DNA of 64,000 nt from NCBI RefSeq assembly GCF_021190955.1, contig NZ_JAIOAO010000001.1, forward strand, positions 1,302,001 to 1,366,000. Direction: 5' to 3'. Source of the stretch: Parachryseolinea silvisoli (lineage in GTDB: Bacteria > Bacteroidota > Bacteroidia > Cytophagales > Cyclobacteriaceae). Shown in pieces: positions 4,847-20,746 of the stretch. Below the pieces are notes generated by a model. That model made no database searches. It was not told where the DNA came from and saw only the letters and a list, made by a program, of their open reading frames with translations. The translations under genes were made by a program, and so were the position numbers. Within the stretch, counting starts at the first letter, position 1. Every line of letters begins with the position of its first letter.

Positions 4847-5107
4847 GAGAGGTTGTTTGAGATCTCAATTATAGTAAATTACAAGAACTGTCGGACACCG
4901 TGACTCCCACCAAAAAAAGAAGCCGCGTTTTAACAACCTTACAGCGACCATATAGTGACCTTTCGCCATACCAAAGCCATAGCAAAGCAAGGGGCCGCGA
5001 CAAAGCTATTCCAACGCTGGCGCCGGCAAGCTATCACGAACAAGCCAGATATTGTCATTCCCACAGCTTTCCCTAGCTTTGATTACAGTAATGCCATAAA
5101 ATATAAC

Positions 5108-5572
5108 ATGGGTAATTTCACCATTCTGGACACTCTTGAAGACCTCGAACCCGGCGACCAGCAGCTCGTACAAGCTGCCGTCAAAGCGTCGGCACAGGCC
5201 TATGCACCATATTCGCAATTCCATGTAGGTGCTGCTTTACTGCTCGACAATGGTGTCATAGTGACAGGCGCAAACCATGAAAACGCCGCATACCCCTCTT
5301 GTATGTGTGCAGAACGGGTGGCAATTTATGCCGCTGCGGCGCAGTATCCGGGCATGTCTATCCGCAAGCTGGCGGTAATAGCATTGCGCGGCGGGGTCGC
5401 ACCATTAGTGTCAGCGTCGTCCTGCGGACCCTGCCGGCAGGTCATGCTGGAGTTCGAGCACCGGCAAAACACACCAATGGAGGTTGTGTTCCAGGCGCCC
5501 GACAACCGGTGGGTGAAGACCTCCACGGCAGCCTCGCTCCTGCCCTTTGCCTTTTCGAAGGATAATCTCTAA
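5108..5572 (+). CDS. cdd: Cytidine deaminase
   Basis: A 154-residue homotetramer-type cytidine deaminase of pyrimidine salvage, turning (deoxy)cytidine into (deoxy)uridine. The zinc site is clear: the CAERVAI motif holds a Cys ligand and the catalytic Glu, and SCGPCRQVMLEF holds the other two Cys ligands. The substrate loop NHENAAYPS precedes the CAE motif. The frame is open up to a GTG at 4955, but those 51 extra residues look non-coding and would exceed family length, so I chose the ATG at 5108. The neighbouring saccharopine dehydrogenase-like gene is divergent. Confidence 0.92.
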   Translation: MGNFTILDTLEDLEPGDQQLVQAAVKASAQAYAPYSQFHVGAALLLDNGVIVTGANHENAAYPSCMCAERVAIYAAAAQYPGMSIRKLAVIALRGGVAPLVSASSCGPCRQVMLEFEHRQNTPMEVVFQAPDNRWVKTSTAASLLPFAFSKDNL

Positions 5573-5648: not shown

Positions 5649-7574
5649 ATGAAGTTTCTGCGTGATAAATCTCTCCGCCAGATCGGTCTCTATCTGCTTC
5701 TGCTGATCACTGCGCTTTTTATCGCCGAGTACTTCATTCTCCGGCAGAAGATCAATACACTGGATGAAGTCGAACAAAAGCTTGACTTTACCCGCAGCAC
5801 CCAACTATCCAGTCAGCAGATCTCACTGCTCATACAACGCTTCCGCGCACAAGACACAACAACAGCCATCGACATCCAGGCACGCCTCGTACAACAAGAC
5901 GCGCAGTTGGAAATATTGGGCAACGGTGGCCGCATCAGCCGCACCGACGTCATCCTGAAGCCACTGGCACGCCTGCCCCGCATCTCGTATGACAACCTGA
6001 TACGGTATTGGAATCAATACAAAGAAACTGTCACGACCTTACTTCCCGTGCGAAAGGCTGCTTCGGCAGCAACAACAATCACACCCGCTGCTGTGCCCGC
6101 GCCGATCGTTACGGACGATACAACACAATTCAGTGACAGCACACAAGCCGAGACCATCGTCCCCGAACCTGTGGCAGTAGCCGTCGCCGGGCCTGTTTTT
6201 GTACTACCGGATCCTGCCGTGGCCGCCGAGGCGCGCCTACGGCAAGAAAGCCTGGCCATTACGTTGGGCCATTGGTATGACAATCTCTTCAACGACCTCG
6301 AAGACGAAGTGGCCCGCGATAAACGCGCCGTGGAGAACTGGGTAACGATCATCATTCTATTCAACATCGCACTGTTGATCGCGCTGTACTATTGCTTCGA
6401 CCGCTTTGTGTTGCGCACGATTCGCCAGTTGACCGAGACTTCCGCACGGCACGAACAAGTGTACAACTTACCACCCAACGAGATCGGCAAAATGGCAAGC
6501 CAGATCAACGAAACGCTCGAGAGCCTTAAAGACGCCACCAACTTCGTCACGGCCATTGGCCAGGGCGACCTGTCGATGGACTATCGCGAGTCGCTTGACA
6601 CTGGCTACAACCGCGGCAAGAACAAGCTAGCCGACTCGCTGATCGACATGCAGGTAAAGCTCAAGAACCTGAACGAAGAAGAGCGCAAGCGTCAGTGGGC
6701 CAATGAAGGGCTAACCAAGTTTGTAGACATTCTGCGTTCGTCGAGTGATAACATCCGCGTGCTGGGTGATCAGATCATCGCATCACTGGTGCAATACACG
6801 CGCTCGAACCAGGGCGGCCTGTACATTCTCAACGACGAAGAAGAGAACAATGTGTACCTCGAACTGGTGTCGCTCTTCGCCTTTGACATCAAGAAACACG
6901 AGACCCGGCGTATCAAACCGGGTGAAGGTCTGCTGGGGCAGACCTTTCTTGAAAAAGACACAAATTATTACACGAGCTTCCCTGACGAATACGTGCGTAT
7001 CACCTCCGGGTTAGGCGATGCCAACCCCCGGGCTATTTTGATCGTGCCGCTGAAGATAGACACGAAAGTATACGGTGTTGTCGAGCTCGCATCCTTCCAC
7101 GAATACCAGCCGCACGAGATTGCCTTCGTCGAGCGCCTGGGCGAGACCATCGCTTCAACGATCGCCTCGGTACAGTCGGCACAAAAGAATAAACACCTTA
7201 TTGAGCAGTTCCAGCAGCAGACAGAAGAGATGCGCGCACAGGAAGAGGAGATGCGCCAGAATATGGAGGAGCTGCAAGCCACCCAGGAAGAGATAGCACG
7301 CAAGGAGCAAGGGTATATCGCCCGCATTCAATCGCTCGAAGAAGAACGGAAAGGCCTTGTTTCGCCAGCCGAAGCGTTGGAAGAGGCAGCCCGCACGTTC
7401 CGCACACGGGAGGCCGACTACGTGCAGACCATTGAGTCGCTCAAAACAACAGTTGCCAGGAAGCCCGTGCGCAGCGACGATTGGCAGGTAGCCGAAGAGG
7501 TTGAAAAGACCTTCCGGGTAAACCTGGAAGCCCTGCAAATCACGCAAGAAGAACTTAACCGGAAAGTAAAATAA
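5649..7574 (+). CDS. Membrane GAF-domain receptor with coiled-coil tail
   Basis: A 641-residue membrane sensor. A first helix near residues 10-30 and a second near 229-250 flank an extracytoplasmic region of about 200 residues with an Ala/Pro/Thr-rich stretch. A HAMP-like region follows, then a GAF domain (about 365-515, with GEGLLGQTFLEK and AILIVPLKI) and a long coiled coil. The coil holds EEMRQNMEELQATQEE and, at the C-terminus, a second related copy (LEALQITQEEL). There is no kinase, phosphatase or cyclase domain and no MCP signalling hairpin. The frame opens at a TTG at 5640 but the ATG at 5649 is better. With CheR and CheB downstream, the coil is a plausible methylation target (inference). 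Confidence 0.75.
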   Translation: MKFLRDKSLRQIGLYLLLLITALFIAEYFILRQKINTLDEVEQKLDFTRSTQLSSQQISLLIQRFRAQDTTTAIDIQARLVQQDAQLEILGNGGRISRTDVILKPLARLPRISYDNLIRYWNQYKETVTTLLPVRKAASAATTITPAAVPAPIVTDDTTQFSDSTQAETIVPEPVAVAVAGPVFVLPDPAVAAEARLRQESLAITLGHWYDNLFNDLEDEVARDKRAVENWVTIIILFNIALLIALYYCFDRFVLRTIRQLTETSARHEQVYNLPPNEIGKMASQINETLESLKDATNFVTAIGQGDLSMDYRESLDTGYNRGKNKLADSLIDMQVKLKNLNEEERKRQWANEGLTKFVDILRSSSDNIRVLGDQIIASLVQYTRSNQGGLYILNDEEENNVYLELVSLFAFDIKKHETRRIKPGEGLLGQTFLEKDTNYYTSFPDEYVRITSGLGDANPRAILIVPLKIDTKVYGVVELASFHEYQPHEIAFVERLGETIASTIASVQSAQKNKHLIEQFQQQTEEMRAQEEEMRQNMEELQATQEEIARKEQGYIARIQSLEEERKGLVSPAEALEEAARTFRTREADYVQTIESLKTTVARKPVRSDDWQVAEEVEKTFRVNLEALQITQEELNRKVK

Positions 7575-7835
7575 ACACGTGTATGCCGTGTGTCAGACGG
7601 CCCACCGGCCTGTCTTTGCCGTCGGATATAGCTTGTAGATACACACTTCCAGGGGAGCTTTTTAAAGTTTTTAAATGCCTTTTTTTCAACTAATTAGATT
7701 GAATTACTTAATTTCATTACTGTAAGAAAAACGCGGCCTTCGGGTGCTTTTGAACGCGTGTAAGATTTCACTGTCAAATTCACCCCCCGGTACGTAATAG
7801 CACTTAATTTTGGGTTCCTTTATAAAGACCTGTAC
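7575..7835. other. Intergenic stretch between the GAF receptor and cheR
   Basis: These 261 bases hold no gene. The first part has a weak inverted pair (gacggc near 7600 and gccgtc near 7618) that is not a convincing terminator. The rest is AT-rich and ends with the candidate cheR promoter. Confidence 0.5.
7805..7812 (+). promoter_or_regulatory. Candidate -7 promoter box (taattttg) for the cheR operon
   Basis: An exact TAnnTTTG match 23 bases before the cheR ATG, inside a 261-base gap after the GAF receptor. No TTTG is seen at the expected -33 spacing. If real, it would start a cheR-cheB-GAF-SpoIIE transcript separate from the upstream receptor. Confidence 0.45.
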
Positions 7836-8657
7836 ATGCTCGATATCGACATTGCCGACCTAAAAAAGATTTCAGAGCTTATTTACCAGAAGTACAACTA
7901 TGACTTCCGGAATTATGCCATGTCGTCGTTCAAACGACGTGTGCTCCGGATCATGGAATTGAAGAAACTTTCGGTAGACGCACTTCTGAAAAAAATAACC
8001 GAACAACCAGCCTTTATCAACGAGTTCCTCGACGAGCTCACGGTAAATGTTACTGAAATGTTTCGTGACCCGAGCTTCTGGCGCATTATGCGGGAGGAGA
8101 TCATTCCCGCCATCCAGCTCAATCACAAGCAATTCAAGATCTGGCACGCAGGCTGTTCGTCGGGCGAAGAAGTCGTTTCCATGTGCATTATGCTCAAAGA
8201 GATGGGCATTCTGCAAGATGTGACGCTGATTGCTACCGACCTGGATGTAAACATTCTGGAGCGCGCCAAGCAAGCCACCTACCCTGCCAAGAACATGGAG
8301 CTGAATGAGAAAAACTACATCCGGTTCCAGGGCACCAAAAGCTTCAAGGATTATTACCGCGAAGAGAATGGCAACGCCATCTTCAACAAAGACCTTTTCA
8401 TGAACGTCTCCTTCCGCCGCCACGATCTGGTGCTGGGAGAGATCTTCAATAAATTCGATCTGGTATTATGCCGGAACGTCATGATCTATTTCAACCAGAA
8501 CTTGCAGAACGAAGTACTGAAGAAGTTCCACGAGAGCTTGTTCAAGTACGGCTACCTGGCAATTGGTTCGAAAGAGTCATTGATCTGGTGTGATTACGCC
8601 AGCCGATTCATTGTCGTAAACAATGAGGAGAAGATATATAAGAAAATAAAAGATTAA
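7836..8657 (+). CDS. cheR: CheR-type protein-glutamate methyltransferase
   Basis: A 273-residue CheR, which transfers methyl groups from S-adenosylmethionine to receptor glutamates. It has the N-terminal helical domain (SFKRRVLRIMELKK), the conserved NVTEMFRDPSFW segment, the SAM-binding loop HAGCSSGEEVVSM, ATDLDVNILERAK, and FDLVLCRNVMIYF followed by AIGSKESL. The length is normal, with no TPR or pentapeptide tether. CheB starts 19 bases downstream. There is no CheA, CheW, CheY or ordinary MCP in the window, so this CheR probably acts on a non-canonical receptor such as the neighbouring coiled-coil GAF proteins (inference). Confidence 0.93.
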   Translation: MLDIDIADLKKISELIYQKYNYDFRNYAMSSFKRRVLRIMELKKLSVDALLKKITEQPAFINEFLDELTVNVTEMFRDPSFWRIMREEIIPAIQLNHKQFKIWHAGCSSGEEVVSMCIMLKEMGILQDVTLIATDLDVNILERAKQATYPAKNMELNEKNYIRFQGTKSFKDYYREENGNAIFNKDLFMNVSFRRHDLVLGEIFNKFDLVLCRNVMIYFNQNLQNEVLKKFHESLFKYGYLAIGSKESLIWCDYASRFIVVNNEEKIYKKIKD

Positions 8658-8676
8658 GCGAGCTGCACTTTGACGA

Positions 8677-9270
8677 ATGAGTAAGTTCAACCTAAATAAC
8701 AGCTATAAGGCCGTTGTTATCGGTGGGTCAGCAGGCAGCTTCCAGGGCGTGGTCAAGATCCTGTCGCAGTTACCGAAGGGATTCCCATTGCCCATCATTA
8801 TGTGTCTACACCGGCTCAAACACGTGCGTAACGGTTTCGTGGAAGCGCTCTCTATCAAGAGCGTGGTACAGGTGACCGAGCCGCACGATAAAGAAAATAT
8901 AAAGAAAGGAAGCGTGTACCTGGCCCCGGCCAATTACCATATGTCCGTCGAACTGGGACTTCATTTTGCTCTCTCTACCGAAGAGATGATCAACAACTCC
9001 CGGCCAGCGATTGACATCACGCTCGGCACCAGCGCCTTTGTTTACAAAGACAAGCTGGTCGGTATCCTGCTTTCGGGCGCCAATAAAGACGGCGCGCTGG
9101 GCATGAAACACATACACGATCGCGGCGGCCTGACCATCGTACAGGAGCCGACAGAGTGTATGATCGATACCATGCCGAAAGCCGCCCTGGCGGTGACCAA
9201 GATTGACCACACATTGAAAGTGGACCAGATTGTAGAGTTTTTAAAGGAACTAGATAAACAATACCGATGA
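8677..9270 (+). CDS. cheB: CheB-type methylesterase, catalytic domain only
   Basis: A 197-residue protein-glutamate methylesterase that lacks the usual N-terminal receiver domain. The Ser-His-Asp triad is placed at S18 (IGGSAGS), H45 (MCLHRLKH) and D138 (SGANKDGALGM); the following GGLTIVQEP and TMPKAAL segments are also typical. Without a receiver it cannot be switched by CheA-type phosphorylation, so it may be constitutive or regulated by partner binding. Its stop overlaps the next start (ATGA), so it is coupled to the small GAF protein. Confidence 0.9.
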   Translation: MSKFNLNNSYKAVVIGGSAGSFQGVVKILSQLPKGFPLPIIMCLHRLKHVRNGFVEALSIKSVVQVTEPHDKENIKKGSVYLAPANYHMSVELGLHFALSTEEMINNSRPAIDITLGTSAFVYKDKLVGILLSGANKDGALGMKHIHDRGGLTIVQEPTECMIDTMPKAALAVTKIDHTLKVDQIVEFLKELDKQYR

Positions 9271-10034
9271 CAGGCTTATTTAACGATCGATATTACCTCA
9301 ATGTCATCCTGGCAATGTTCTTTATGGCTGGGATTGTCATTTCTCTGTACCTGATCTACTCGCTTCCTGCCGACTTGCGCCTGACCGACGGTTATCAGTC
9401 CGCTTTCACGGGCATCTACCTGACCATCGGCGCAACGTTTCTGCTGGGAGCCCTTACGCTTAGCGGATCGCTACGCTATAAGAAAGAGCTGATCGTCATG
9501 CGTGACCGTGTGATCGATGCCGCCCAGGCCAAACGCGACGAAGCCGACCAATCCGGTAAAACGTCGATCAGCCTCGACGCCGTAAAAAGCAGCCTGCAGC
9601 AAGCACGTAACCAAAAGGATATACTCAACAGCGGTCTGCAAGCCATCTGCAAACAGCTGGAAGCCGGCCAGGGCGCATTATACCTCACACGCGAAGAAGA
9701 CGGTAAACGCACCGTCGAGCTGCAAAACGGCTATGCGCTCTCCGTAGGAGAAAGCACCGTGATCAAGTTTGAATTTGGCGAAGGCCTTGTAGGCCAGGCC
9801 GCCGCCAGCGCCCGTACACTCTACGTGGACGATGTACCGACCGGCTATATCAAGATCATTTCTGGTCTTGGCAGCGCCTCTCCCCGCTATTTATTGATCG
9901 TTCCTATAAAACAACAAGCGCAAGTACTCGGAATCATGGAGATTGCCTCCTTTACGAATGTCACGGAAGACCAGCGTAAGTTCGTGGAAGAAGCCGCGCA
10001 GTTGGTGGCCGATAAAATTTCAACAAAAGCATAG
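9267..10034 (+). CDS. Small membrane-anchored GAF-domain protein
   Basis: A 255-residue protein with two N-terminal membrane helices (about residues 12-30 and 47-66), a short coil, and one GAF domain (about 115-250) with FGEGLVGQAAAS, GLGSASPRYLLIVPI and LGIMEIASF. The GAF domain resembles those in the 5649 and 10054 proteins, so the three genes appear to have shared GAF modules. There is no output domain; it may be a ligand-sensing partner of its neighbours. The start overlaps the cheB stop, and the stop is 19 bases before the next gene. Confidence 0.75.
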   Translation: MTGLFNDRYYLNVILAMFFMAGIVISLYLIYSLPADLRLTDGYQSAFTGIYLTIGATFLLGALTLSGSLRYKKELIVMRDRVIDAAQAKRDEADQSGKTSISLDAVKSSLQQARNQKDILNSGLQAICKQLEAGQGALYLTREEDGKRTVELQNGYALSVGESTVIKFEFGEGLVGQAAASARTLYVDDVPTGYIKIISGLGSASPRYLLIVPIKQQAQVLGIMEIASFTNVTEDQRKFVEEAAQLVADKISTKA

Positions 10035-10053
10035 TACCAGCGCCGAACACGAT

Positions 10054-13000
10054 ATGATGAAAAGCATAAACATCACCACCAGAATTACCATTCTTATTCT
10101 CATGGTGTCGCTCGTGGCCGTCGCCTCGATCAGTTTTTTCAGCTATGATTACCACCAGAAGGCGAACGAGGAAAAATACTCGGCTACACTTGCTTCCCTG
10201 GTGGATAACCGCTCAGCGTACCTCAACTCCTTCTTCGACAAGGCTGCTTTGGCCGTTCGCATCTTACAAAGCTCCGATCGCCTGAAGAGTGGCGGCAGTG
10301 GCGGAGCAAGTGCAGCACCGGCCGACGATCCGTTTGCGGCCATGATGGCCTCCGCCCCCCCGAGCCCTTCTGCTGAACCCGATACTACCGGTGCACTGGA
10401 AGAGCCTGCTCCCAGTGGTGGTACCCTGACCGACTACCTCAACGACCAGAAGTCGATTCTCGATGTAGCCCAGATCACCATCACATCTGAAAAAGGTGCC
10501 GTCGTAGCTTCTACCGACCCGACCGTCAAAGGAAACTTTATCGACCAGGATGGCCACATCTTTGAAAAAGCTAAAAGCGACATTTATTTCTCGGAAGTTA
10601 CGCGTGACAAGCGTACCAAGAAATTTTATTCTTACGTAGCCGGACCAGTAACAGACGCCAGCGGCGCACAGCAGCTCATCATCGTTACTATCGATCTGAC
10701 ACACCCCTATCGCGTACTGAAAAACTACCACGGTCTGGGCACCAGCGGCGAGCTGCTGTTGGGTCGTCTCTACCCTGGCACGGGCAAAGTGGCCATCGTC
10801 AGCCCCCAACGCAACGACACATCGTCAGCCATCATCCCGCTAGACACTACCATCCAGTTTATGAAGGGCTTTGCCCAGCTGGTAGACGGTAAGTCTATTC
10901 CCAATGAAAGCGACGACCAAAACGGCAAATCTGTACTCCAGGTAGGTCGCAAGCTGTCACACGGCGGCTTCGCACTGATTGGCAAAATCGACGTACAGGA
11001 AGTACACAGCCACGACGGCAAGCTTACCAGCTTATTCTTCTATGCCGGTCTGTGTATCGTGGCACTGGCAGTATTCCTGTCGATGATGTTCTCACGCTCG
11101 CTCATGCGCCCGCTGCACTCTATGCGTACTACGATCGGCCTGGTGGCGCAGGGTGTACTGCCGGAGACAACCGAACAACGCAATAGCGACGAGTTTGGCC
11201 AGATGGGTAACAAGGTAGACGAGCTTGTACAGACCCTGCGTGGTAATGCTGACTTTGCCAGACGCATTGGTGAAGGCAAATACGACACGGAGTTTACACC
11301 CGCCAGCGAAAACGACATTCTGGGTAAGTCGCTCATCGAAATGCGCGACAACCTGATTGAGAACGAGCGTCAGGATAAAGAGCGTAACTGGATCGTGCGC
11401 GGTGTCGCCGAAATCAGTGAGATCCTGCGTATGCACGACTCGATCGACGAGCTCGGTGACGACGTGATCAAGTTCATTCTCGAAAAGATCGGTGCGATAC
11501 AAGGCGCCTTCTATGTCGTAAACGACGAGACAACGCCCGCCCTGATCGAAATGCGTGCGAGTTATGCGTATAACCGCAAGAAATATCTCAAATCGAAATT
11601 CAAGTTCGCCGAAGGCCTGGTAGGCCAGTCCGCCGCCGAAAAAGATACCGTATTGCGTACCGAAATACCGGACGAATATGTGACTATCACCTCGGGCATC
11701 CTCGGCGACCAACGCCCGCACTGTATTCTCATTGTACCGTTGATCACCAACGAAGAAGTGTACGGTGTACTCGAATTTGCCGGCTTTCGCCGCTTCGACC
11801 CTTCGCAGGTGAAATTCGTACAAGAGCTTTCGCTCATCCTGGCCCGTACCATCTTTAACATCAAGGTGAACGAGCGTACGCGCAGGCTGCTGGCCGAGTC
11901 GCAGGAGATGAGTAACGAGCTCAAAGAAAAGCAGGAAGTACTGCGCCAGAACGCTGAAGAAATGCAGGCTACGCAGGAAGAGCTGCAACGCTCCAACCAG
12001 AAACTGGAAGAACAGATCGAAGAAGTAAACCGCACACAGAGCCGCATGCAGCTGTTGCTGGAAAACGCTTCCGAGGTTATCACCATCTATGAAGAGGACG
12101 AAAGCATCCGCTATATCTCACCGTCGGTAGAGACCATCCTGGGCTACGGCCAGAAAGAGATGATCAGCAAGAGCGACATCGACAAAGTACACCCGGACTA
12201 CCGCGATACATTCCGCGACCTCTTCCGCAAGATGAAAGAGCAGCCCGATGAGCGGGTCACCATTCAGTACGAATACCGCGCGAAAGACGGCAGCTTTATC
12301 TGGCTGGAGTCTGCTGGGACCAACTGTATGTCGAACCCGGCCATTCACGGCTTCATCCTCAACTCGCGTGACATTACTGAACGCCGCCGTGCAGAGCAAG
12401 AGCAGCGTATGCGTTCTAAAATGCAGGCCCTCTCGGAAAACTCACTCGACCTTATCACCCGTCTCGAAGGCGACTTGATATCGTATATCAACCCGGTTAT
12501 CCAGGAGTATACTGGCAAACAGCCATCATTCTTCCTCAACCGCAAAGTGCAGGAAACCGAGCTGGACAGCGCCGTACTGGAAGGCTGGCTCAAGGTAGTT
12601 GAGCAGGTAAATGCAACCAACGAAAAGGCCGACACCGAAATGGACTTCCCGTCAGAAATGGGCAAGCGCATTATGCAGGTGAACGCCATTCCGGAATTCG
12701 ACGAGTCGAACAAGCTCGAATCCGTACTGGTAGTATCCCACGATATTACCGAGCGGAAAATGATCGAGCTCGAGATCCAGAACAAAAACAAGAAGATCAC
12801 CGAAAGTATCAACTACGCAAAGCGTATTCAGACGGCGATCCTGCCCAACAGCAAAGTGATCAGTAAGGCGTTACCCGACTCGTTCATCTTGTATAAACCC
12901 CGCGATGTGGTATCGGGTGACTTCCCATGGTTCGTACAGATTAAAGACGAGCTCTTTATCGCGGCCGTAGACTGTACCGGTCACGGCGTACCGGGCGCGT

Positions 13001-13545
13001 TGTTGTCGTTGATCGGCTACTTCTTGCTGAACGACATCGTACGCAGCCGTAAAATTACCGAGCCGGGTAAGATCCTCGACCTATTGGACGAAGGGGTTAC
13101 GACAACCCTCCGCCAGGACGAAGACTCCACGACAAAAGACGGTATGGATATCGCGCTTTGTAAGATTAACATGGAGACCCGCGAAGTGGAATATGCCGGT
13201 GCTCACCGCCCCCTATACGTCATGAAAAATGGCGCGATGGAGGAGGTAAAAGGCAATAAGTTCCCGATCGGCGGCGGTATCTATAAGAACCAGACTAACT
13301 TTACCAATACAAAGATCGAGCTTAGCGCAGGCGATTCGATTTACTTCAGCTCCGATGGATTCCCCGATCAGTTCGGTGGTGCCGAAGGACGCAAGTTCGG
13401 ACCGAAGCGTACCCGCGAGATTGTTGAACGCGTCCACACCGGGTCTATGAACGACGCCGTCGGTATATTTGACGAGGAGTGGGAGAACTGGCGTGGCGAT
13501 CATAAACAAACGGACGACGTGTTACTGATCGGTATTAAATTCTAA
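10054..13545 (+). CDS. Sensor phosphatase: extracytoplasmic domain, HAMP, GAF, PAS, PAS, SpoIIE (SiaA-like output)
   Basis: A 1163-residue membrane sensor. The first helix is near residues 10-30 and the second near 326-348, enclosing an extracytoplasmic region with a low-complexity Gly/Ala/Pro/Ser insert. HAMP-like sequence runs to about 450, a GAF domain about 455-605, a coiled coil about 609-665 with LRQNAEEMQATQEEL, then two PAS domains (from about 668 and 793). The C-terminal SpoIIE/PPM serine phosphatase (about 915-1163) shows SGDFPWF, D973 in VDCTGHGVPGAL, DGMDIAL, SSDGFPDQFGG and QTDDVLLIG. I chose the ATG at 10054 (another at 10057) because the upstream extension overlaps the previous gene. 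Followed by siaB- and siaC-like genes, it should dephosphorylate the SiaC-like protein (inference from the Pseudomonas Sia system). Confidence 0.87.
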   Translation: MMKSINITTRITILILMVSLVAVASISFFSYDYHQKANEEKYSATLASLVDNRSAYLNSFFDKAALAVRILQSSDRLKSGGSGGASAAPADDPFAAMMASAPPSPSAEPDTTGALEEPAPSGGTLTDYLNDQKSILDVAQITITSEKGAVVASTDPTVKGNFIDQDGHIFEKAKSDIYFSEVTRDKRTKKFYSYVAGPVTDASGAQQLIIVTIDLTHPYRVLKNYHGLGTSGELLLGRLYPGTGKVAIVSPQRNDTSSAIIPLDTTIQFMKGFAQLVDGKSIPNESDDQNGKSVLQVGRKLSHGGFALIGKIDVQEVHSHDGKLTSLFFYAGLCIVALAVFLSMMFSRSLMRPLHSMRTTIGLVAQGVLPETTEQRNSDEFGQMGNKVDELVQTLRGNADFARRIGEGKYDTEFTPASENDILGKSLIEMRDNLIENERQDKERNWIVRGVAEISEILRMHDSIDELGDDVIKFILEKIGAIQGAFYVVNDETTPALIEMRASYAYNRKKYLKSKFKFAEGLVGQSAAEKDTVLRTEIPDEYVTITSGILGDQRPHCILIVPLITNEEVYGVLEFAGFRRFDPSQVKFVQELSLILARTIFNIKVNERTRRLLAESQEMSNELKEKQEVLRQNAEEMQATQEELQRSNQKLEEQIEEVNRTQSRMQLLLENASEVITIYEEDESIRYISPSVETILGYGQKEMISKSDIDKVHPDYRDTFRDLFRKMKEQPDERVTIQYEYRAKDGSFIWLESAGTNCMSNPAIHGFILNSRDITERRRAEQEQRMRSKMQALSENSLDLITRLEGDLISYINPVIQEYTGKQPSFFLNRKVQETELDSAVLEGWLKVVEQVNATNEKADTEMDFPSEMGKRIMQVNAIPEFDESNKLESVLVVSHDITERKMIELEIQNKNKKITESINYAKRIQTAILPNSKVISKALPDSFILYKPRDVVSGDFPWFVQIKDELFIAAVDCTGHGVPGALLSLIGYFLLNDIVRSRKITEPGKILDLLDEGVTTTLRQDEDSTTKDGMDIALCKINMETREVEYAGAHRPLYVMKNGAMEEVKGNKFPIGGGIYKNQTNFTNTKIELSAGDSIYFSSDGFPDQFGGAEGRKFGPKRTREIVERVHTGSMNDAVGIFDEEWENWRGDHKQTDDVLLIGIKF

Positions 13546-13647
13546 TGTTTGACATCGGAATTCCGGGGTTTTATAAGGCCCCTGAAGGTCTGGTAAGAAA
13601 TAAATTTTAACTTAGTGAACCTCAATTTTAATCAAATCTTCTGACGC

Positions 13648-14196
13648 ATGAAATTCATTTATGACCTGCACCGCACCATGATGTCACAGAAACTCATTCT
13701 GGTCTATCAGGGTGACTTTACCCAGGAGAGCACCAAGTCCATACTATCGATGGCCGAGCGAAATCTCGATTCTTCCGGGGAAGAGTCTAGCATCAAGCGC
13801 AAGGTATTTAATGTAATGGTCGAAGCTCTCCAGAATATTGTTAAACACAGCGACGAACTGGTCGACGGACAAATACGCAGCCATGCAGCGATCTTCCTGA
13901 TCGGCAAAGAGGCAAACCAGTATTCGATCATGTCGGGCAACCCGATTCGCAAGGAAAATGTTTCCAAGCTGCAGGCTGCGCTCGAGCGTATCAACGGCCT
14001 GGAAAAAGAAGGCTTGAAAGATTTGTACAAAGAGATTATTAAGAATACGACCATCTCTGAAAAAGGTGGTGCAGGATTGGGGTTCGTCGATATGGCCAGA
14101 AAGTCAGGAGAGAAACTGGAATTCGAATTTCCGGAAATGTCTGCCGAATACTGCTTTTTCTGTCTGAAAGTAAACGTGCCGCGTGACAGCGAATAA
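13648..14196 (+). CDS. SiaB-like anti-sigma-type protein kinase (DUF6272)
   Basis: A 182-residue protein of the SiaB kinase family, a GHKL-like fold. The ATP-site landmarks are the N-box MVEALQNIVKHS and the G-box GGAGLGFVDMAR; the end (AEYCFFCLKVNV) fits the last strand of the fold. In Pseudomonas aeruginosa, SiaB phosphorylates SiaC and SiaA reverses it. Here the SpoIIE phosphatase gene lies 102 bases upstream and the SiaC-like gene 38 bases downstream, the same three functions side by side. Confidence 0.85.
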   Translation: MKFIYDLHRTMMSQKLILVYQGDFTQESTKSILSMAERNLDSSGEESSIKRKVFNVMVEALQNIVKHSDELVDGQIRSHAAIFLIGKEANQYSIMSGNPIRKENVSKLQAALERINGLEKEGLKDLYKEIIKNTTISEKGGAGLGFVDMARKSGEKLEFEFPEMSAEYCFFCLKVNVPRDSE

Positions 14197-14234
14197 TTTA
14201 TTGAATTATAGAACAATCTAAATAGACTTATACC

Positions 14235-14597
14235 ATGGAAATTTTGAATCTGGAAGGAACAGAAGACACTCCAAAAATAATCCTCGATAAGAAAAACGGA
14301 ATCTTTGAGATTTCCGGCCGTTCGCTCCCTGAAGATTCTGCTGAATTCTATCGCCCTGTGCTGGAGTGGATCGCCAAGTATGGCGCTGAGCCACACGCAA
14401 CGACTGAGTTCGTATTCAAGCTGGAATACTTCAACACGGCTTCTTCGAAGCTGATCCTGGATGTGCTCTCTGCCCTCGAAGACATCAAGGGGATGCGCAT
14501 CGTATGGTACTTCCATGAAGACGACGAAGACATGGAGGAAGCTGGCCAGGAGTTCTCCGAGCTGGTAGAGATTCCGTTCGAGTTTAAGACTTATTAA
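14235..14597 (+). CDS. SiaC-like regulatory phosphoprotein (DUF1987)
   Basis: A 120-residue protein of the SiaC/DUF1987 family, with a STAS-like fold. The family signature KLEYFNTASSK is present, and the threonine falls at T68, the same number as the phosphorylated threonine reported for Pseudomonas SiaC. The N-terminus (TPKIILDKKNGIFEISGRSLPED) and the acidic HEDDEDMEEAGQEF segment are typical. In Pseudomonas the unphosphorylated form activates the diguanylate cyclase SiaD; no GGDEF protein is seen in this window, so the target here is unknown. A large hairpin follows. Confidence 0.87.
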   Translation: MEILNLEGTEDTPKIILDKKNGIFEISGRSLPEDSAEFYRPVLEWIAKYGAEPHATTEFVFKLEYFNTASSKLILDVLSALEDIKGMRIVWYFHEDDEDMEEAGQEFSELVEIPFEFKTY

Positions 14598-14634
14598 TGG
14601 CTACCGTGGGGGTACAAAAACCCACTGTATGGTA

Positions 14635-14700
14635 ATCGGTTATCAGTCGTGAAAGAGCCCCTTTAACCGGGTTGCGGGAGGCTGATAACCGATATTTTTT
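14635..14700 (+). terminator. Long-stem hairpin between siaC-like gene and ABC transporter
   Basis: A perfect 12-bp stem (atcggttatcag at 14635-14646 and ctgataaccgat at 14682-14693) encloses 35 bases that can themselves pair (agcc with ggct), and a seven-T tract follows. It has the form of an intrinsic terminator, but the large structured loop is unusual. It would end or attenuate the sia transcript before the transporter gene, whose ATG is 28 bases further on. Confidence 0.7.
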
Positions 14701-14727
14701 TATACTTTATAAAATTGCTTTCCAACC

Positions 14728-17700
14728 ATGAGTGAAGAAATACTCAAAGCTCTCACCCAACTTTTTGCGATTATCACAAAACAGGATGGCGGCGCTACTG
14801 AAGGCGAGCGGCAATACGTTATAAACTTCTTCCAGACTGAACTTGACCAGGATTCTGTAAAAGAGTACCTGGACCTCTACGATCAATTCTCTGGCTACGG
14901 TGGTAAAGCAGATGACGAGGACGGAAAGAAGAAGCTGACCTCTGTAAAAGATTCCGTAAAGACCCTGGGAATCTGTAAGAAGATCAACAAGACGCTGACG
15001 CAAAAGCAGAAGGTCGTTGTACTGATCAAGTTGTTGGAGCTGGTCAGCACCGACAAGAACTTTACCGACCAACGGATGGAGATCATCAATACCGTCTCCA
15101 CCGTATTTAATATCGTGCAGGAAGAATACGACCTTATCGAAAGCTTCGTGCGCACGGAAGACCCCACTACACTCAACTTTGCAGATATACTATTGCTGAA
15201 CTCCGCCGCCCGCGGCGAAGAAGGCAAAATCTATAAACACGTACACGGCCACATCGGCGGTTCGCTCATCTTTATGCGCGTGCGCGGCGTGGAAATGTAC
15301 TTCACCAAATACCTGGGCGAAGAGTCGAACGTATTGAACGGTTTCATGATGCAGCCCAACCGTGTATACCTGTTCTCCCACGGCAGTACCATCAAGACCC
15401 AGGGCGGCGACGCGTTGTACTACAGCGACCTCGTAGCCAACTACAACGAAGAGCTGAAGACCACCAAATTATCTTTTAATGTCACCATCGACGAGCTGAA
15501 GTTCGCCAACGGTGGCATTGGTCTGCGCAACGTGCGCATCTCCGAAGGCCCCGGTAAGCTCATCGGTATCATGGGCGCCTCCGGTGCCGGTAAAACAACC
15601 CTGCTCAACGTCATGGCTGGCCTCGTGCAGCCTACCACGGGGCAGATCCTCATCAACGGCTTCGACATCAATACCCAAAAAGACCGAATCCATGGGGTCA
15701 TCGGGTACGTGTCGCAGGACGACTTGCTCATCGAGGAGCTGACCGTATACCAGAACTTGTACTACAACGCCAAGCTGTGCTTTGCCGACTTCACCGAAGA
15801 GCAACTCCACAAGCGCGTAATGGAAGTGTTGGAAAACCTCGGCCTCGACCAGCGCAAAGATCTGCGCGTGGGAAATCCGTTGGACAAGACCATCAGCGGT
15901 GGTCAACGGAAACGTCTGAATATCGCCCTGGAACTGATCCGCGAGCCGGCCATCCTTTTCCTCGACGAGCCCACCTCGGGCCTCTCCTCGCGCGACTCGG
16001 AAAACGTCATCGACTTGCTCAAAGAATTGTCACTGAAAGGCAAGCTGATCTTTGTCGTAATTCACCAGCCTTCATCCGACATCTATAAGATGTTCGACAA
16101 GATGATCATCATGGACACCGGTGGCTACCCGGCGTACTATGGCACGCCGGTGGAAGCCGTAACCTACTTCAAGAAGTCAACGCACCAGGTAGACAGCAAC
16201 CGGGGCCAATGCGAGACCTGCGGTAACGTAAATCCCGAGCAGATTTTCAACATCATCGAGGCCAAAGTGGTCGACGAATACGGACAGCCTACCAACAAAC
16301 GCAAGATCACCCCGCCGCAATGGTATGACCTCTACAAAGAACGCTTTAAGATCAACAAGGTCGAAGACGTCCGCGAAGAGCCACCGCACTCGCTGACACT
16401 TCCCAACAAGCTACGCCAGACGTTTGTCTTCGCCACACGTGATACGTTGTCGAAGCTCAGCAACAAACAATATTTGTTAATCAACCTCCTCGAGGCGCCG
16501 CTGCTGGCCATCATTCTGGCCTTCATCATCAAGTACCGCAGCGCACCGGGTGGCAAAGAATACATCTTCCGCTTCAACGACAACTTCCCTGCCTTCATGC
16601 TCATGAGCATTATTGTGGCGTTGTTTATGGGGCTTACGGTCAGTGCCGAAGAGATCATCCGCGACCGGAAGATCCTGCGCCGCGAGTCATTCCTGAACTT
16701 GAGCTGGAACAGCTATCTCATGTCGAAAGTGTGGATCCTCTTTACCCTGTCGGCTATTCAAACTTTCCTGTTTGTACTTATCGGAAACCTCATCCTGGAG
16801 ATCGAGTGGCGTATGCTCCTTCCCTTCTGGTTTGTGTTGTTCACGACCTCCTGCTTTGCCAGCGTGCTGGGCCTTAACATCTCGTCGGCCTTTAACTCGG
16901 CCGTTACCGTGTATGTCATGATTCCGCTGCTGCTCATTCCCCAAATGATCCTAAGCGGCCTGCTGTTCAGTTTTGACAAGCTCAACGACCTGATCAGCAC
17001 CAAAGGCAAAGTACCCATCGTGGCCGATATGATGGCCTCGCGGTGGGCCTACGAGGCCCTCGCCGTGTACCAGTTCAAAGATAACTCGTACGAGAAGCCA
17101 TATTATGCCTTCGAGAAAATCGAATCCCAGGCAGACTTCCGTTCCTCGTTCCTCGTAGACGAGCTTGACAAGAAGCGTCGCGACATTGCCGGCAACCTCG
17201 ATGAGAAGGCCGACTCGATCCGTCAGAAGCTGCAAAGCGACCTGACCATTATCGAGACCACGCTGCGCAAGGACTACTTCAAGAAAGGATTGGAGAAAGA
17301 GCTCGCTACCGACTGGACGTTAAAAGACTTCACACCGGCATTTAATAAGAAGCTGGAAGACTTCTTTATCGCCTACAAGAAGTTCTACCAGGAGGCGTAT
17401 AACAAAGCCGTGGCAGCCCGTGAGAATGTGATCCTCAATTTGGAGAAAGATCCCAGCTACAAGCTGAACGACTACAAGAACGACTACTACAACGAAAGCC
17501 TGGCTGACCTGGTGAAGAATGTCAACGAAAAGAACCGGATCATCGAGTTCAACGGTGAGCTTATCCAGCAGATCAACCCGGTGTTCCTGCCGCCGGCACC
17601 AAAGAGCCCTTTAGACTACCGGGCACAGTTTTTCGCACCGGAGAAGGAGTTCCTGGGTATTTCGTTCAGCACCTATTGGTTCGACTTGCTGATTATTTGG

Positions 17701-17814
17701 GTCATGGCTGCTATGCTGTATGTCACCCTGTACTTTGAGCTGCTGCGTAAGTTCATCGAATCCTTCGACAAGATCGAGGGTAAACTGGCACTGCTGAAGG
17801 CAAAAAAGAAATAA
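14728..17814 (+). CDS. ABCG-type half transporter with N-terminal TerB-like domain
   Basis: A 1028-residue fusion. Residues 1-140 are helical and acidic and resemble a TerB/tellurite-resistance-like domain. Residues about 150-255 form a beta-rich region I cannot name. The ATPase follows: Walker A GASGAGKTT (283-291), signature ISGGQRKRL (from 389) and Walker B ILFLDEPTSGL (D413, E414), with an H-loop VIHQPSSD. An ABC2-type membrane part begins near 584 (LLEAPLLAIILAFII). About 190 hydrophilic, coil-forming residues then separate the main helices from a last helix near 986-1005; this would be a large periplasmic loop. The order ATPase then membrane domain is that of ABCG half transporters, so a homodimer is likely. 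Substrate unknown. Confidence 0.83.
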   Translation: MSEEILKALTQLFAIITKQDGGATEGERQYVINFFQTELDQDSVKEYLDLYDQFSGYGGKADDEDGKKKLTSVKDSVKTLGICKKINKTLTQKQKVVVLIKLLELVSTDKNFTDQRMEIINTVSTVFNIVQEEYDLIESFVRTEDPTTLNFADILLLNSAARGEEGKIYKHVHGHIGGSLIFMRVRGVEMYFTKYLGEESNVLNGFMMQPNRVYLFSHGSTIKTQGGDALYYSDLVANYNEELKTTKLSFNVTIDELKFANGGIGLRNVRISEGPGKLIGIMGASGAGKTTLLNVMAGLVQPTTGQILINGFDINTQKDRIHGVIGYVSQDDLLIEELTVYQNLYYNAKLCFADFTEEQLHKRVMEVLENLGLDQRKDLRVGNPLDKTISGGQRKRLNIALELIREPAILFLDEPTSGLSSRDSENVIDLLKELSLKGKLIFVVIHQPSSDIYKMFDKMIIMDTGGYPAYYGTPVEAVTYFKKSTHQVDSNRGQCETCGNVNPEQIFNIIEAKVVDEYGQPTNKRKITPPQWYDLYKERFKINKVEDVREEPPHSLTLPNKLRQTFVFATRDTLSKLSNKQYLLINLLEAPLLAIILAFIIKYRSAPGGKEYIFRFNDNFPAFMLMSIIVALFMGLTVSAEEIIRDRKILRRESFLNLSWNSYLMSKVWILFTLSAIQTFLFVLIGNLILEIEWRMLLPFWFVLFTTSCFASVLGLNISSAFNSAVTVYVMIPLLLIPQMILSGLLFSFDKLNDLISTKGKVPIVADMMASRWAYEALAVYQFKDNSYEKPYYAFEKIESQADFRSSFLVDELDKKRRDIAGNLDEKADSIRQKLQSDLTIIETTLRKDYFKKGLEKELATDWTLKDFTPAFNKKLEDFFIAYKKFYQEAYNKAVAARENVILNLEKDPSYKLNDYKNDYYNESLADLVKNVNEKNRIIEFNGELIQQINPVFLPPAPKSPLDYRAQFFAPEKEFLGISFSTYWFDLLIIWVMAAMLYVTLYFELLRKFIESFDKIEGKLALLKAKKK

Positions 17815-17830
17815 AGCATGCAGGTAACAT

Positions 17831-17861
17831 TTTGGCTGGGAATGCTTAATTTTTAAATTTG
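17831..17861 (+). promoter_or_regulatory. Bacteroidota-type promoter for the lipoprotein gene
   Basis: A -33 box tttg (17831-17834) and a -7 box taaatttg (17854-17861) are separated by exactly 19 bases. This is the best match to TTTG-N19-TAnnTTTG that I found in the window. The leader to the ATG at 17897 would be about 30 bases. Confidence 0.6.
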
Positions 17862-17896
17862 TAAACTGATAAATTTATATCATTTAATAACTCTGT

Positions 17897-18799
17897 ATGA
17901 GACTACTACCTATCGGGCTCTGTCTGGCAATCCTACTTTCGGCTTGCGGATCCGGTAAGAAGACCGATGAACAAGCCTTCCTGGAAGGTCTTGACTCGGC
18001 TAAAACCGAAGGGCCTACAATATCTGAAGAAGTCATTGGCGACATCCTCCAGCAGATTCCCAGTCCGTTGGAAATCTCTGTGCTTCTGAAAGAGTCTGGC
18101 AAGAAGTATAATGCTTCTTACCTGAACTCGCCGGACAACACATCGAAGTACAACACCAACTACAAGAAGGCCCTCAACCTCGGCCTGTACGGTACTGACC
18201 TGGGTTACACCAACATCTACGAGCAGAACCAGGACGGTGTAAAGTACATGGCTTCTATCAAAACACTGGCGGATGGTCTGAGCATTGGTCAATTCTTCGA
18301 CGTTGAGACTATCGGTCGTCTGGCTACCAACAGCAAGAACCTCGATTCTCTGCTGCTGATCACCACCCAGAACTTCAACACGATCAACCATTATTTACAA
18401 TCGCAGGGCCGTGCGAACCTCAGCGTACTGTTCCTGACAGGTGGCTGGCTGGAAGCGCTTCACATTACCTGCGCTACTGCTTCAGCAAACCCTGACAACC
18501 AGCAACTGAAAGAGACCATCGGTGAGCAGAAAATCATCCTGGAAAGCATCATGCTCCTCCTCTCCTTCTACAAGGAGTCGGATCAAAATATGGCATCATT
18601 GTTGACTGACATGGAAGAGCTGAAAAAAGTGTACGACAAAGTCAAGATCACGTACACGTACAAGGAGTCTACTATGGAAGTCGTAAATGGTGTAGCGATT
18701 ATCAAAGATAATAGCACGAGCACGATTGAAATCACACCTGAAGATATCGCCAGCATCAGCGCGGTTACCTCTTCCATCAGATCTAAGATTATATCATAA
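17897..18799 (+). CDS. Conserved lipoprotein of the Sia/Che/ABC block
   Basis: A 300-residue protein with a lipoprotein signal peptide: a hydrophobic core (LPIGLCLAILLSACGSG) and a lipobox LSAC with Cys near residue 17. The mature part is mostly helical and polar, with no catalytic motif I recognise. It has its own promoter although only 82 bases follow the transporter gene. The position suggests an outer- or inner-membrane-anchored partner of the transporter or receptors, but this is inference. Confidence 0.65.
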   Translation: MRLLPIGLCLAILLSACGSGKKTDEQAFLEGLDSAKTEGPTISEEVIGDILQQIPSPLEISVLLKESGKKYNASYLNSPDNTSKYNTNYKKALNLGLYGTDLGYTNIYEQNQDGVKYMASIKTLADGLSIGQFFDVETIGRLATNSKNLDSLLLITTQNFNTINHYLQSQGRANLSVLFLTGGWLEALHITCATASANPDNQQLKETIGEQKIILESIMLLLSFYKESDQNMASLLTDMEELKKVYDKVKITYTYKESTMEVVNGVAIIKDNSTSTIEITPEDIASISAVTSSIRSKIIS

Positions 18800-18826
18800 G
18801 CTAAGAATAAGAAATACAGGCGTCCT

Positions 18827-19246
18827 ATGAAAAAGTTAATGTTTATTGTTCTATCCGTTTTCGTTCTGAGTACCTTGGAAGTTATCGGACAGTGCAACTC
18901 GGAAGCCCTGAGCAACCAGTGTATTCCCAAACTGGCCGAAGGATTTAACTTTCTGAAAAGCTATAAAATCGAAAAAGGAGGAAAGGACTTCGTGGAGTAT
19001 TCATATGTGTTCACCAAAGGCACACAATATATGATCAACATCTGCGCCGCGACCCAGCCTACGGATGGCATTGTGGTAAGCCTTTTCGACTCCAACCGGA
19101 ACAAAGTAGCGACCAGCAAGATCAACGGCCAGTTCGTATCGGCGATTGCATATCCTTGTAACACCACCGGTATCTACTACATCCAGTATACCTTCGACGG
19201 TTCAGCATCCTACTGCGGTGGCAGCGCGCTCGGCTTCAAACGCTGA
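18827..19246 (+). CDS. Small secreted protein of unknown function
   Basis: A 139-residue protein with a signal peptide (MKKLMFIVLSVFVLSTLEVIGQ) and a predicted beta-rich mature part containing five cysteines, which could pair in the periplasm. The segment GTQYMINICAATQPTDGIVVSLFDSN followed by TTGIYYIQYTFDGS looks like a pre-peptidase or CBM-like beta-sandwich, but I cannot assign it. It starts 27 bases after the lipoprotein stop and ends at a strong terminator, so it closes the block. Confidence 0.6.
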   Translation: MKKLMFIVLSVFVLSTLEVIGQCNSEALSNQCIPKLAEGFNFLKSYKIEKGGKDFVEYSYVFTKGTQYMINICAATQPTDGIVVSLFDSNRNKVATSKINGQFVSAIAYPCNTTGIYYIQYTFDGSASYCGGSALGFKR

Positions 19247-19326: not shown

Positions 19327-19980
19327 ATGCAGCACGAAGTCTCCTTCACCACCCGCGCCCGTTACCACAAGCTCGGGACCATTACCGAACAGACCCAACA
19401 CGTGTGGTTTGTCCTGCACGGCTACGGCCAGCTAGCCCAATACTTCGTCCGTAAGTTTCGCCCGGCAGAAGCGGCCGGCATCTGTGTCATCGCTCCAGAA
19501 GCCCTCTCCCGCTTTTACCTGGAAGATGTTACCGCGCGCATGCAAAGCGGCAACAACCGCGTAGGCGCCTCGTGGATGACGCGCGAGAATCGCCTCATGG
19601 ACATCGATAATTATATACAGTACCTGAACGCTGTCTACCAACAAGAGATCCCCCCTGATCATTCGTTACAAATAACCATTCTCGGATTTTCACAAGGCGC
19701 CGCGACGGCTACGCGCTGGGCAATAAATGGCCAGGTACCGTTTCACCGGCTCATTCTCTGGGCGGGAATCTTCCCTCCCGATATGGACCTGGAAACAGGA
19801 AGAGAAGTATTAAAAGACAAGGAGGTTGTATCGGTGCACGGCACATCCGACCCATTTCTTACCGACGCCCGCTTTGCCGAAATGGAAACACTCTCGGCCC
19901 GGCTACACGTTACGCCTCGCAGGCTAACCTTCGACGGTGGGCACGATATACACGAAGGCACTCTGCCTCAACTTTTTTAA
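19327..19980 (+). CDS. Alpha/beta hydrolase, phospholipase/carboxylesterase type
   Basis: A 217-residue cytoplasmic serine hydrolase without signal peptide. The oxyanion-hole motif LHGYGQ is near residue 30. The triad is placed at S122 (GFSQGAAT), D175 (HGTSDPFLT) and H206 (GGHDIHEG). This is the compact layout of the carboxylesterase/thioesterase (YpfH or LYPLA-like) group. The substrate is unknown. The 3' end overlaps the convergent SDR gene by four bases. Confidence 0.85.
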   Translation: MQHEVSFTTRARYHKLGTITEQTQHVWFVLHGYGQLAQYFVRKFRPAEAAGICVIAPEALSRFYLEDVTARMQSGNNRVGASWMTRENRLMDIDNYIQYLNAVYQQEIPPDHSLQITILGFSQGAATATRWAINGQVPFHRLILWAGIFPPDMDLETGREVLKDKEVVSVHGTSDPFLTDARFAEMETLSARLHVTPRRLTFDGGHDIHEGTLPQLF

Positions 19981-20738
19981 CCACGCTTCACTTGCGTACT
20001 GCTGGCCTGTGCCGTAGGGAACACGGTAATATCTGCCAGTACCACGTGTGCCGGCGCCTGCAATACATAAAGAATAATATCGGCAATATCAGCACCCTGC
20101 AGCGGCGTCATCCCTTGATAGGGCGCCGACGCTTTCGATTCATCGCCTTTAAAGCGCACAAGCGAGAACTCTGTTTCCACCAGGCCTGGGTTAATAGACG
20201 TCACTTTAATACCGTAAGCATTTAAGTCCATCCGCATGCCGCGGGTCAACGCATCGACCGCAAACTTGCTTGCGCAGTATACATTACCGTTCGGATAGAC
20301 TTCTTTCCCGGCAATAGACCCCAGGTTGATAATGTGCCCCGACTGACGGCTCGTCATCACGGGAATCACTTCTTTCGATACATACAGCAAGCCCTTTACA
20401 TTGATGTCGATCATGGCATCCCAGTCGGCCAGGCTACCGGTTTGTATCGGATCAAGGCCGTGTGCATTGCCGGCATTGTTCACCAGCACATCGATATTCT
20501 TCCATTCGGCCGGCAGCGATGCAATCGCGCGCTGTACCTCGGCATGCTCGCGCACATCAAAGGACAACGTCGTTACTTTTGTTTGCACGGCCAGCTCCTG
20601 TTGTAACGTTTCCAACCGCTCGCGGCGGCGGCCACAGAGAATGATATCGAAGTGGTGGGCGGCCAGCAACCGGGCCGTGGCCTCGCCAATGCCGGATGTC
20701 GCACCCGTGATGAGGGCTATTCTTTTCTGCATATGCAA
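19977..20738 (-). CDS. Short-chain dehydrogenase/reductase (YdfG-like)
   Basis: A 253-residue classical SDR. It has the cofactor loop TGATSGIGEAT at the N-terminus, the NNAGNAHG motif, a catalytic Ser in NLGSIAGKE and the YCASKFAV active-site motif. The sequence is close in style to NADP-dependent 3-hydroxy acid/serine dehydrogenases of the YdfG group (INPGLVETEFS). Two in-frame ATGs lie six bases apart at the start; either is possible. It ends eight bases before the reading frame of the co-directional porT-like gene begins upstream, so it is probably the last gene of that transcript. Confidence 0.85.
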   Translation of the reverse strand: MHMQKRIALITGATSGIGEATARLLAAHHFDIILCGRRRERLETLQQELAVQTKVTTLSFDVREHAEVQRAIASLPAEWKNIDVLVNNAGNAHGLDPIQTGSLADWDAMIDINVKGLLYVSKEVIPVMTSRQSGHIINLGSIAGKEVYPNGNVYCASKFAVDALTRGMRMDLNAYGIKVTSINPGLVETEFSLVRFKGDESKASAPYQGMTPLQGADIADIILYVLQAPAHVVLADITVFPTAQASSTQVKRG

Positions 20739-20746
20739 AGACTAAA

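Follow-up and report, generated by a model that had tools for sequence, protein, structure and literature searches.

We describe here a block of ten genes in a 64,000-nucleotide stretch of the genome of Parachryseolinea silvisoli (contig NZ_JAIOAO010000001.1, positions 1,302,001 to 1,366,000; hereafter the window), in which a putative Sia-type partner switch is encoded together with the adaptation enzymes CheR and CheB and an ABCG-type half transporter. We hold it moderately probable that this block joins a Sia-type partner switch to a form of CheR/CheB adaptation independent of chemoreceptors. To the fuller proposal we give an even chance: Bacteroidota would possess a second class of methyl-accepting sensors outside the methyl-accepting chemotaxis proteins (MCPs), in which one CheR/CheB pair reversibly methylates the motif EE[LM]xATQEE in many GAF/PAS coil sensors, including the phosphatase E of the switch, while the switch gates the transporter H through SiaC. 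Genomes and loci are cited below by our G and L numbers. As the initial annotation stated, the ten genes (A to J) lie co-directionally at 5649–19246 of the window and are all open frames on the plus strand. Its gene list, from a GAF/coil receptor to a secreted protein, is borne out by Pfam domains for A to H, with the start of E corrected from 10051, an Asp (D) codon, to 10054:

5649–7574, plus strand: A, membrane GAF receptor with a coiled-coil end, carrying a methylation-like motif (Pfam GAF)
7266–7292, plus strand: motif EELQATQEE in A, residues 540–548 (pattern match)
7836–8657, plus strand: B, CheR methyltransferase, 273 residues (Pfam CheR_N and CheR)
8677–9270, plus strand: C, receiver-less CheB methylesterase domain, 197 residues (Pfam)
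9267–10034, plus strand: D, GAF domain after two hydrophobic stretches, 255 residues, fast-evolving (Pfam)
10054–13545, plus strand: E, SiaA-like HAMP/GAF/coil/PAS/PAS/SpoIIE (PP2C) phosphatase (Pfam)
11956–11982, plus strand: motif EEMQATQEE in the coil of E, between GAF and PAS (pattern match)
13648–14196, plus strand: F, SiaB-family kinase, DUF6272 (Pfam; NF038262)
14235–14597, plus strand: G, SiaC, PF09345, with the T68-equivalent Thr in FNTASSK (Pfam and alignment to 6kko)
14728–17814, plus strand: H, ABCG-type half transporter with TerB and FHA-like parts and, close to the C-end, a long insertion (Pfam, model, fold search)
17897–18799, plus strand: I, lipoprotein with a conserved Cys17 (open frame)
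18827–19246, plus strand: J, small secreted protein (open frame)

Pfam reported no output domain after the coiled coil of A, no MCPsignal domain (PF00015) in A or E, and no CheA, CheW or MCP domain and no CheB receiver in A to H at E ≤ 0.01. The Ser, His and Asp of the CheB triad are present in C, at what we take to be the triad positions. I and J fall below every Pfam and NCBIfam family cut-off.

The motif EE[LM]xATQEE sits in the coil after the GAF domain of both A and E, and its letters and spacing match the MCP methylation consensus, for which an excerpt of PMC1079850 served as reference. Tsr of E. coli MG1655 reads EQQAASLEETAASMEQ around its methylation sites 297, 304 and 311 (sites as given in an excerpt of PMC6606802), and the Bacteroidota motif shares with it Glu pairs, Ala and Ser/Thr at equal spacing. 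On this comparison, the second Glu of each EE pair is the candidate methyl-accepting residue. The consensus of 32 coil windows presents four Glu pairs with a spacing of exactly seven, and 18 of the 19 coils aligned have at least three EE pairs in register, compared with 0.28% of residue shuffles, a statistic that informs on the neighbouring heptads only, the aligned coils having been selected by the motif. The invariant positions of these coils were dropped as an argument, since most are invariant by construction in coils picked by the exact motif. For the order (59 genomes, the source genome included), the best SiaC match of each of 34 other genomes was taken as the locus; in 22 of these loci E carries the exact motif, and in 25 a generalised form of it. 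Looser coils were detected by profile, and a relaxed pattern applied to 16 loci, including blocks without the exact motif, matched only an MCP in L091. We consider it likely that the coil is a substrate of CheR and CheB.

The occurrence of the motif follows that of the block-type CheR. Within the order, the exact motif is found in 37 of the 59 genomes and the reversed pattern in none, and 38 genomes have a best CheR match at E ≤ 3.2e-84 (the next at 6.9e-71); in the 37 besides the source genome that match has 48–98% identity to the block CheR. The motif is present in 37 of the 38 genomes with block-type CheR versus 0 of the 21 others, with a cut-off that, like the top 21 of the class sample below, was chosen after viewing the ranked lists. 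Copies outside the block occur in all 37 motif genomes (by inference in G001, G009 and G014, whose blocks were incompletely fetched), and therefore the association is independent of E or A alone. Because motif proteins are spread over the genome, the CheR/CheB pair is probably not dedicated to the block. The coil profile recovered all 37 genomes, plus single weaker matches in G052 (1.8e-7) and G026 (7.7e-4).

Since the pattern was derived from the window itself, a sample of 395 genomes of the class constitutes a fairer test; G000, G023, G046 and G048 are shared with the order set, and the class searches scored part of the first-look candidates. Here, of the 21 genomes whose CheR is closest to that of the window, 18 contain the motif; of the remaining 374, three do. 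Two of these three, G243 and G306, have block-like loci with a more divergent CheR (L083, L104), and the motif of the third, G385, is part of a CheB-CheR fusion protein (L085). The coil profile matched 21 of 21 versus 32 of 374 genomes, with some CheR match in 51 of the 53 coil genomes; this profile (A2) contains sequences from 9 class genomes besides the source genome, 8 of them in the top 21, and its count is no independent test.

Outside the order, 17 genomes have the motif. In eight of them (G415, G276, G084, G306, G312, G362, G073 and G214) a motif gene precedes cheR on the same strand, separated from it by no more than two frames. The motif gene of G099 adjoins SiaC and SiaB and is two genes away from a second, more divergent CheR (L079). 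Some motif receptors combine HAMP-GAF-coil with dCache, PilJ-N or 4HB_MCP sensors, that is, MCP-like fronts without the MCP signalling domain. Around the best 80 homologues of H in named genomes (at least two of these loci, L171 and L188, probably come from the same genomes as G031 and G215 of the other sets), the generalised motif was found in 11 of 1056 frames of at least 150 residues, all in CheR loci: 10 of 12 loci with CheR have it, against 0 of 68 without. Multiple copies were also seen: sensors in L113 (7607–12247), L107 (6838–9462) and L077 (1–1701) have several, about 156 residues apart, between successive GAF/PAS domains, and a GAF/PAS sensor of the source genome (L097, 4478–7072; G000:C7) has two, and a further, more divergent CheR gene follows a few genes downstream of it.

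CheB-CheR fusion proteins are an independent instance of enzyme and ladder together. All nine examined, with domains confirmed, have a Glu-pair ladder in their own coil; they come from the source genome, G007, G024, G026, G027 and G048. These ladders (L250, L251, L255–L261) consist of EELQSTNEEL-type heptads with 4–9 Glu or Glu/Gln pairs seven apart, and most of the scanned fusions contain PAS and/or histidine kinase parts. The resemblance to the block coils lies in the seven-residue spacing of the Glu pairs, with mostly Ala, Ser or Thr between. In the fusions, however, enzyme and candidate substrate share one polypeptide, whereas in the block they are separate and one enzyme pair could serve many sensors. 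This arrangement suggests a methylation substrate in cis for the fusion enzymes, block-free genomes included.

Phylogeny was addressed with an rpoB tree of 56 genomes, built by a quick method and with many weak forks (G001, G027 and G028, having no usable rpoB, were left out). The block label was assigned by a SiaC orthologue with best match at E ≤ 1.1e-46, with G001 and G047 added on the basis of CheR and SiaC on shared contigs. This label needs 12 changes, at least five of them on well-supported branches; it coincides with the motif label in all 56 genomes, and five of five supported contrasts agree. With the CheR criterion in place of the SiaC label, G038 joins the block genomes and becomes one exception. 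The presence of MCPs has no tie to the motif on this tree, and 16 of the 38 block-CheR genomes give no MCPsignal match, which makes MCPs unlikely as the sole substrate of the block CheR. Eight of these 16 (G008, G009, G015, G016, G035, G037, G050 and G056) have no CheR match other than the block CheR.

Alternatively, EE[LM]xATQEE could be a lineage-specific signalling-helix module duplicated into GAF/PAS sensors, its link to CheR reflecting shared block ancestry, with CheR and CheB acting elsewhere or on MCPs. E has the coil too and may have given rise to it. In BLAST, many of the coil proteins are similar to A or E, and the independent contrasts on the tree are few; moreover, the core hydrophobic residues M and L of E orthologues are conserved at least as well as the Glu pairs. 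Against such a module stand the match to the MCP methylation consensus, the ladders of the fusions, those of block-free genomes among them, a motif that MCP presence does not track, and the partition of the H loci by CheR (10 of 12 versus 0 of 68). We regard this explanation as unlikely.

The proposal of methylated coil sensors must nonetheless be weighed against several unfavourable observations, to which the conservation of the core M and L also belongs. The coil of E in the source genome has only two EE pairs in register, the sole exception among the 19; E is without the exact motif in 12 of the 34 loci (two of which, L047 and L061, end before the coil); and the exact motif is missing from G215, G291 and G339, although they have the block. 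G038 contains a block-type CheR/CheB pair (L093, G038:C12; 54% and 64% identity) with no coil match, the sole exception in the order, and the single weak coil matches of G052 and G026 occur without block CheR. Of the 17 genomes with the motif outside the order, 7 have it on another contig than CheR. Finally, the Fisher tests of the associations take no account of relatedness, and the five supported contrasts alone give p 0.0625, so that they cannot reach p 0.05.

Methylation-based adaptation is known from chemoreceptors. The block resembles the CheR/CheB adaptation of Tsr and Tar in its methyltransferase and methylesterase domains and, in related loci, in the HAMP and dCache, PilJ-N or 4HB_MCP parts of some motif receptors. 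It differs in having no MCPsignal domain in A or E, neither CheA nor CheW, and a receiver-less CheB, as well as in the presence of its CheR in 16 genomes without any MCPsignal match. What would be new here is the likely CheR/CheB substrate, namely sensors other than chemoreceptors; among the titles listed from an open-licence library, none concerned CheR/CheB with a partner switch or EE[LM]xATQEE. If methylation does tune the phosphatase-kinase switch and many GAF/PAS sensors, adaptation would be a module of wider use in bacterial signalling and would extend to phosphoprotein switching, in cells possibly without chemotaxis. For bacteria where no chemoreceptor was found, the proposal offers a function of CheR and CheB that can be tested, and it suggests a role for the Glu-pair coil of the CheB-CheR fusions.

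E, F and G very probably form a phosphatase/kinase/SiaC switch, judging from homology. The SpoIIE domain of E (PF07228, 67.3 bits) has conserved GDF, DCTGHG, SDG and TDD motifs, whose Asp residues, matched by eye, fit the metal-binding Asp residues of SiaA-PP2C as given, together with T68 of SiaC, in an excerpt of PMC7647112. F matches the SiaB family kinase model NF038262 with 176 bits (cut-off 85), and G matches PF09345 with 133 bits, its NTASS aligning with NTSS of P. aeruginosa SiaC (6kko) and its T68-equivalent Thr being conserved. The likeness to SiaABCD of Pseudomonas aeruginosa thus covers the PP2C phosphatase, the SiaB-family kinase, SiaC with its Thr, and the adjacency of the genes. 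In contrast to SiaABCD, the block proteins miss the NCBIfam equivalog cut-offs for SiaA, SiaB and SiaC (NF038264 for F, NF038265 for G), the phosphatase contains GAF-coil-PAS-PAS with the Glu-pair coil, and the block has cheR, cheB and a TerB-FHA-like-ABCG neighbour but no SiaD or GGDEF.

According to an excerpt of PMC7278518, dephosphorylated SiaC activates SiaD in Pseudomonas. The source genome (98% complete) has no GGDEF match, and therefore this output is inapplicable; a diguanylate cyclase (SiaD) as output was rejected on that ground. Across the 59 genomes three have a GGDEF match, two of them above the cut-off. An ordinary Sia system with diguanylate cyclase output and incidental neighbours, to which the homology with SiaA (E), SiaB (F) and SiaC (G) would point, is set against these same counts and appears highly improbable, unless the assembly of the source genome lacks the gene. 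The source genome has five SiaC copies, and around the four further paralogues (L070–L073) profiles recognised no SiaB, SpoIIE or H neighbour. G038 has 14 SiaC matches.

The block as a whole is almost certainly a real functional unit. The synteny looked for across the order was found, with the nine genes B to J in identical order and strand in 25 of the 34 loci (L056 counted although its H spans two frames), and therefore the arrangement is more than chance. Nor is conservation limited to close relatives: it is order-wide, and most genes recur in other orders, where L101–L108 present receptor-cheR-cheB-(D-like)-SpoIIE, then SiaB and SiaC where the locus extends far enough, with H in L101, L104, L106 and L107. 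Among the named genomes, that of the cultivated relative Flexithrix dorotheae DSM 6795 (L174) contains the complete block. Among the failing loci, L047 and L061 are interrupted by contig ends, L060 is without J, L052 without I and J, L069 without H, I and J, and L057 without B, C, D, I and J; in L063, F and G alone are in order and E is on the opposite strand. D falls below the length rule in L052, L065, L067 and L069, though a D-like match sits in place. The genomes of L057 and L063 have B, C and D together at a separate site (L088, L089); cheR-cheB-D can be separate from the rest of the block.

Receptor A, which the initial annotation included in the block, is not core within the order: just 7 of the 34 loci contain it clearly (L036–L042, from the same genus and two near genera), with partial matches in L045 and L062. 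An A-like receptor precedes cheR in other orders, and in G047 an A-like receptor with the motif lies upstream of cheR (L090). Two irregular gene matches were recorded in this comparison. The H match of L056 (12684–15741) consists of two overlapping pieces in different frames, through a frameshift or an assembly error, and at G001:C218:6380-6466 the first cheR codons match as a separate short piece with one in-frame TGA, which may be an assembly error or a broken gene.

H matches Pfam ABC_tran and ABC2_membrane, with the nucleotide-binding domain before the transmembrane domain, as in ABCG half transporters. Its AlphaFold model has a mean predicted local distance difference test score (pLDDT) of 71.8, and the fold search placed ABCG2 and ABCG5/8 among the best matches, the ABCG chains in the top 30 having target template-modelling (TM) scores of 0.64–0.77. 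TerB (PF05099) scores 29.1 bits with the segment alone (cut-off 24.4) and 23.5, below the cut-off, with the whole protein; against PDB sequences the segment gave one chance-level row only. A profile of residues 148–262 (10 sequences) has one weak PDB match, MEK1 5yyx (E 7.7e-4), in a part that is presumably its FHA domain, while Pfam gave no FHA match in H. The earlier description as TerB-ABCG thus stands, with the addition of a possible FHA-like beta domain after TerB. Rv1747 is an ABCG-type half transporter with an N-terminal FHA-type domain and Ser/Thr phosphorylation control. H resembles it as an ABCG-type half transporter, may share an N-terminal FHA-type domain under Ser/Thr phosphorylation control, and differs in having TerB before the FHA-like domain (from that one weak match) and SiaC as neighbour.

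SiaC is found in 31 of the 80 H loci and is the immediate neighbour of H in 29 of these 31, upstream on the same strand in 16 and downstream on the opposite strand in 13. Because adjacency is kept in two arrangements despite rearrangement, it supports a functional tie between the two, and DUF1987 proteins are suggested to modulate adjacent proteins in an excerpt of PMC8457831. The rival account is that SiaC controls some unlinked target such as a kinase or transcription regulator, with H, I and J as mere neighbours. H occurs without a nearby SiaC in 49 of the 80 loci, which counts against gating by SiaC and for an unlinked target, as do the seemingly separate transcript of I and J (below) and the five SiaC copies, four of them without a profile-recognised neighbour. 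Adjacency in 29 of 31 loci and the suggestion for DUF1987 proteins argue the other way, and we hold the unlinked target possible, if somewhat doubtful. On whether SiaC acts on H, our judgement is evenly poised. The lipoprotein gene is near H in 51 of the 80 loci, more often than SiaC. The model of lipoprotein I is fairly confident (mean pLDDT 82.4), with no known-fold match at E ≤ 0.001.

Two boxes in the block match TANNTTTG, which we take to be the Bacteroidota -7-type promoter consensus:

7805–7812, plus strand: TAATTTTG, -7-type box 31 nucleotides upstream of cheR (match to TANNTTTG)
17854–17861, plus strand: TAAATTTG, -7-type box upstream of the lipoprotein gene I (match to TANNTTTG)

Counting TANNTTTG within 100 nucleotides upstream (5.2% in random stretches), we found the box before I in 18 of 30 loci; cheR has it in 7 of 30, at a distance of 27–33 nucleotides. 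For the other genes the counts are 5 of 33 loci (E), 3 of 33 (F), 2 of 32 (A or its nearest match), one locus each (C, D, G and J) and 0 of 32 (H). The contrast between I and H suggests two transcripts, a cheR-to-H unit and an I-J unit, the latter probably with its own promoter; a single transcript for all ten genes is not favoured on these counts.

The initial annotation had read the block as one signalling system, and this can be retained in part. The order-wide synteny, the conserved phosphatase motifs and SiaC phosphosite, the candidate methylation site and the SiaC-H adjacency are in its favour, while A is not core, two transcripts are suggested, cheR-cheB-D is separable and H often occurs without SiaC. 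Mechanistically, membrane GAF/PAS sensors (A where present, E, and others encoded elsewhere) would relay signals through the Glu-pair coiled coil; CheR would methylate and CheB demethylate the second Glu of the EE pairs, resetting sensor gain as on MCP methylation helices, a step based on comparison. The phosphatase E and the kinase F would determine whether the conserved Thr of SiaC is phosphorylated, as homology with conserved residues indicates, and SiaC in one state would bind and gate the adjacent TerB-FHA-like-ABCG transporter, a step based on adjacency. H would then work at the envelope with lipoprotein I and the secreted protein J. Comparison bears directly on the conservation, the residues, the motif-CheR association and the SiaC-H adjacency. 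Methylation itself, the direction of its effect, the contact of SiaC with H, and the cargo are inferred.

The flanks of the block, with genes named by eye, contain MarC-like, RNase H, dehydrogenase and cytidine deaminase genes at 2488–5572, and hydrolase, short-chain dehydrogenase/reductase (SDR) and outer membrane protein genes at 19327–21499; both sets retain this position in many loci within the family.

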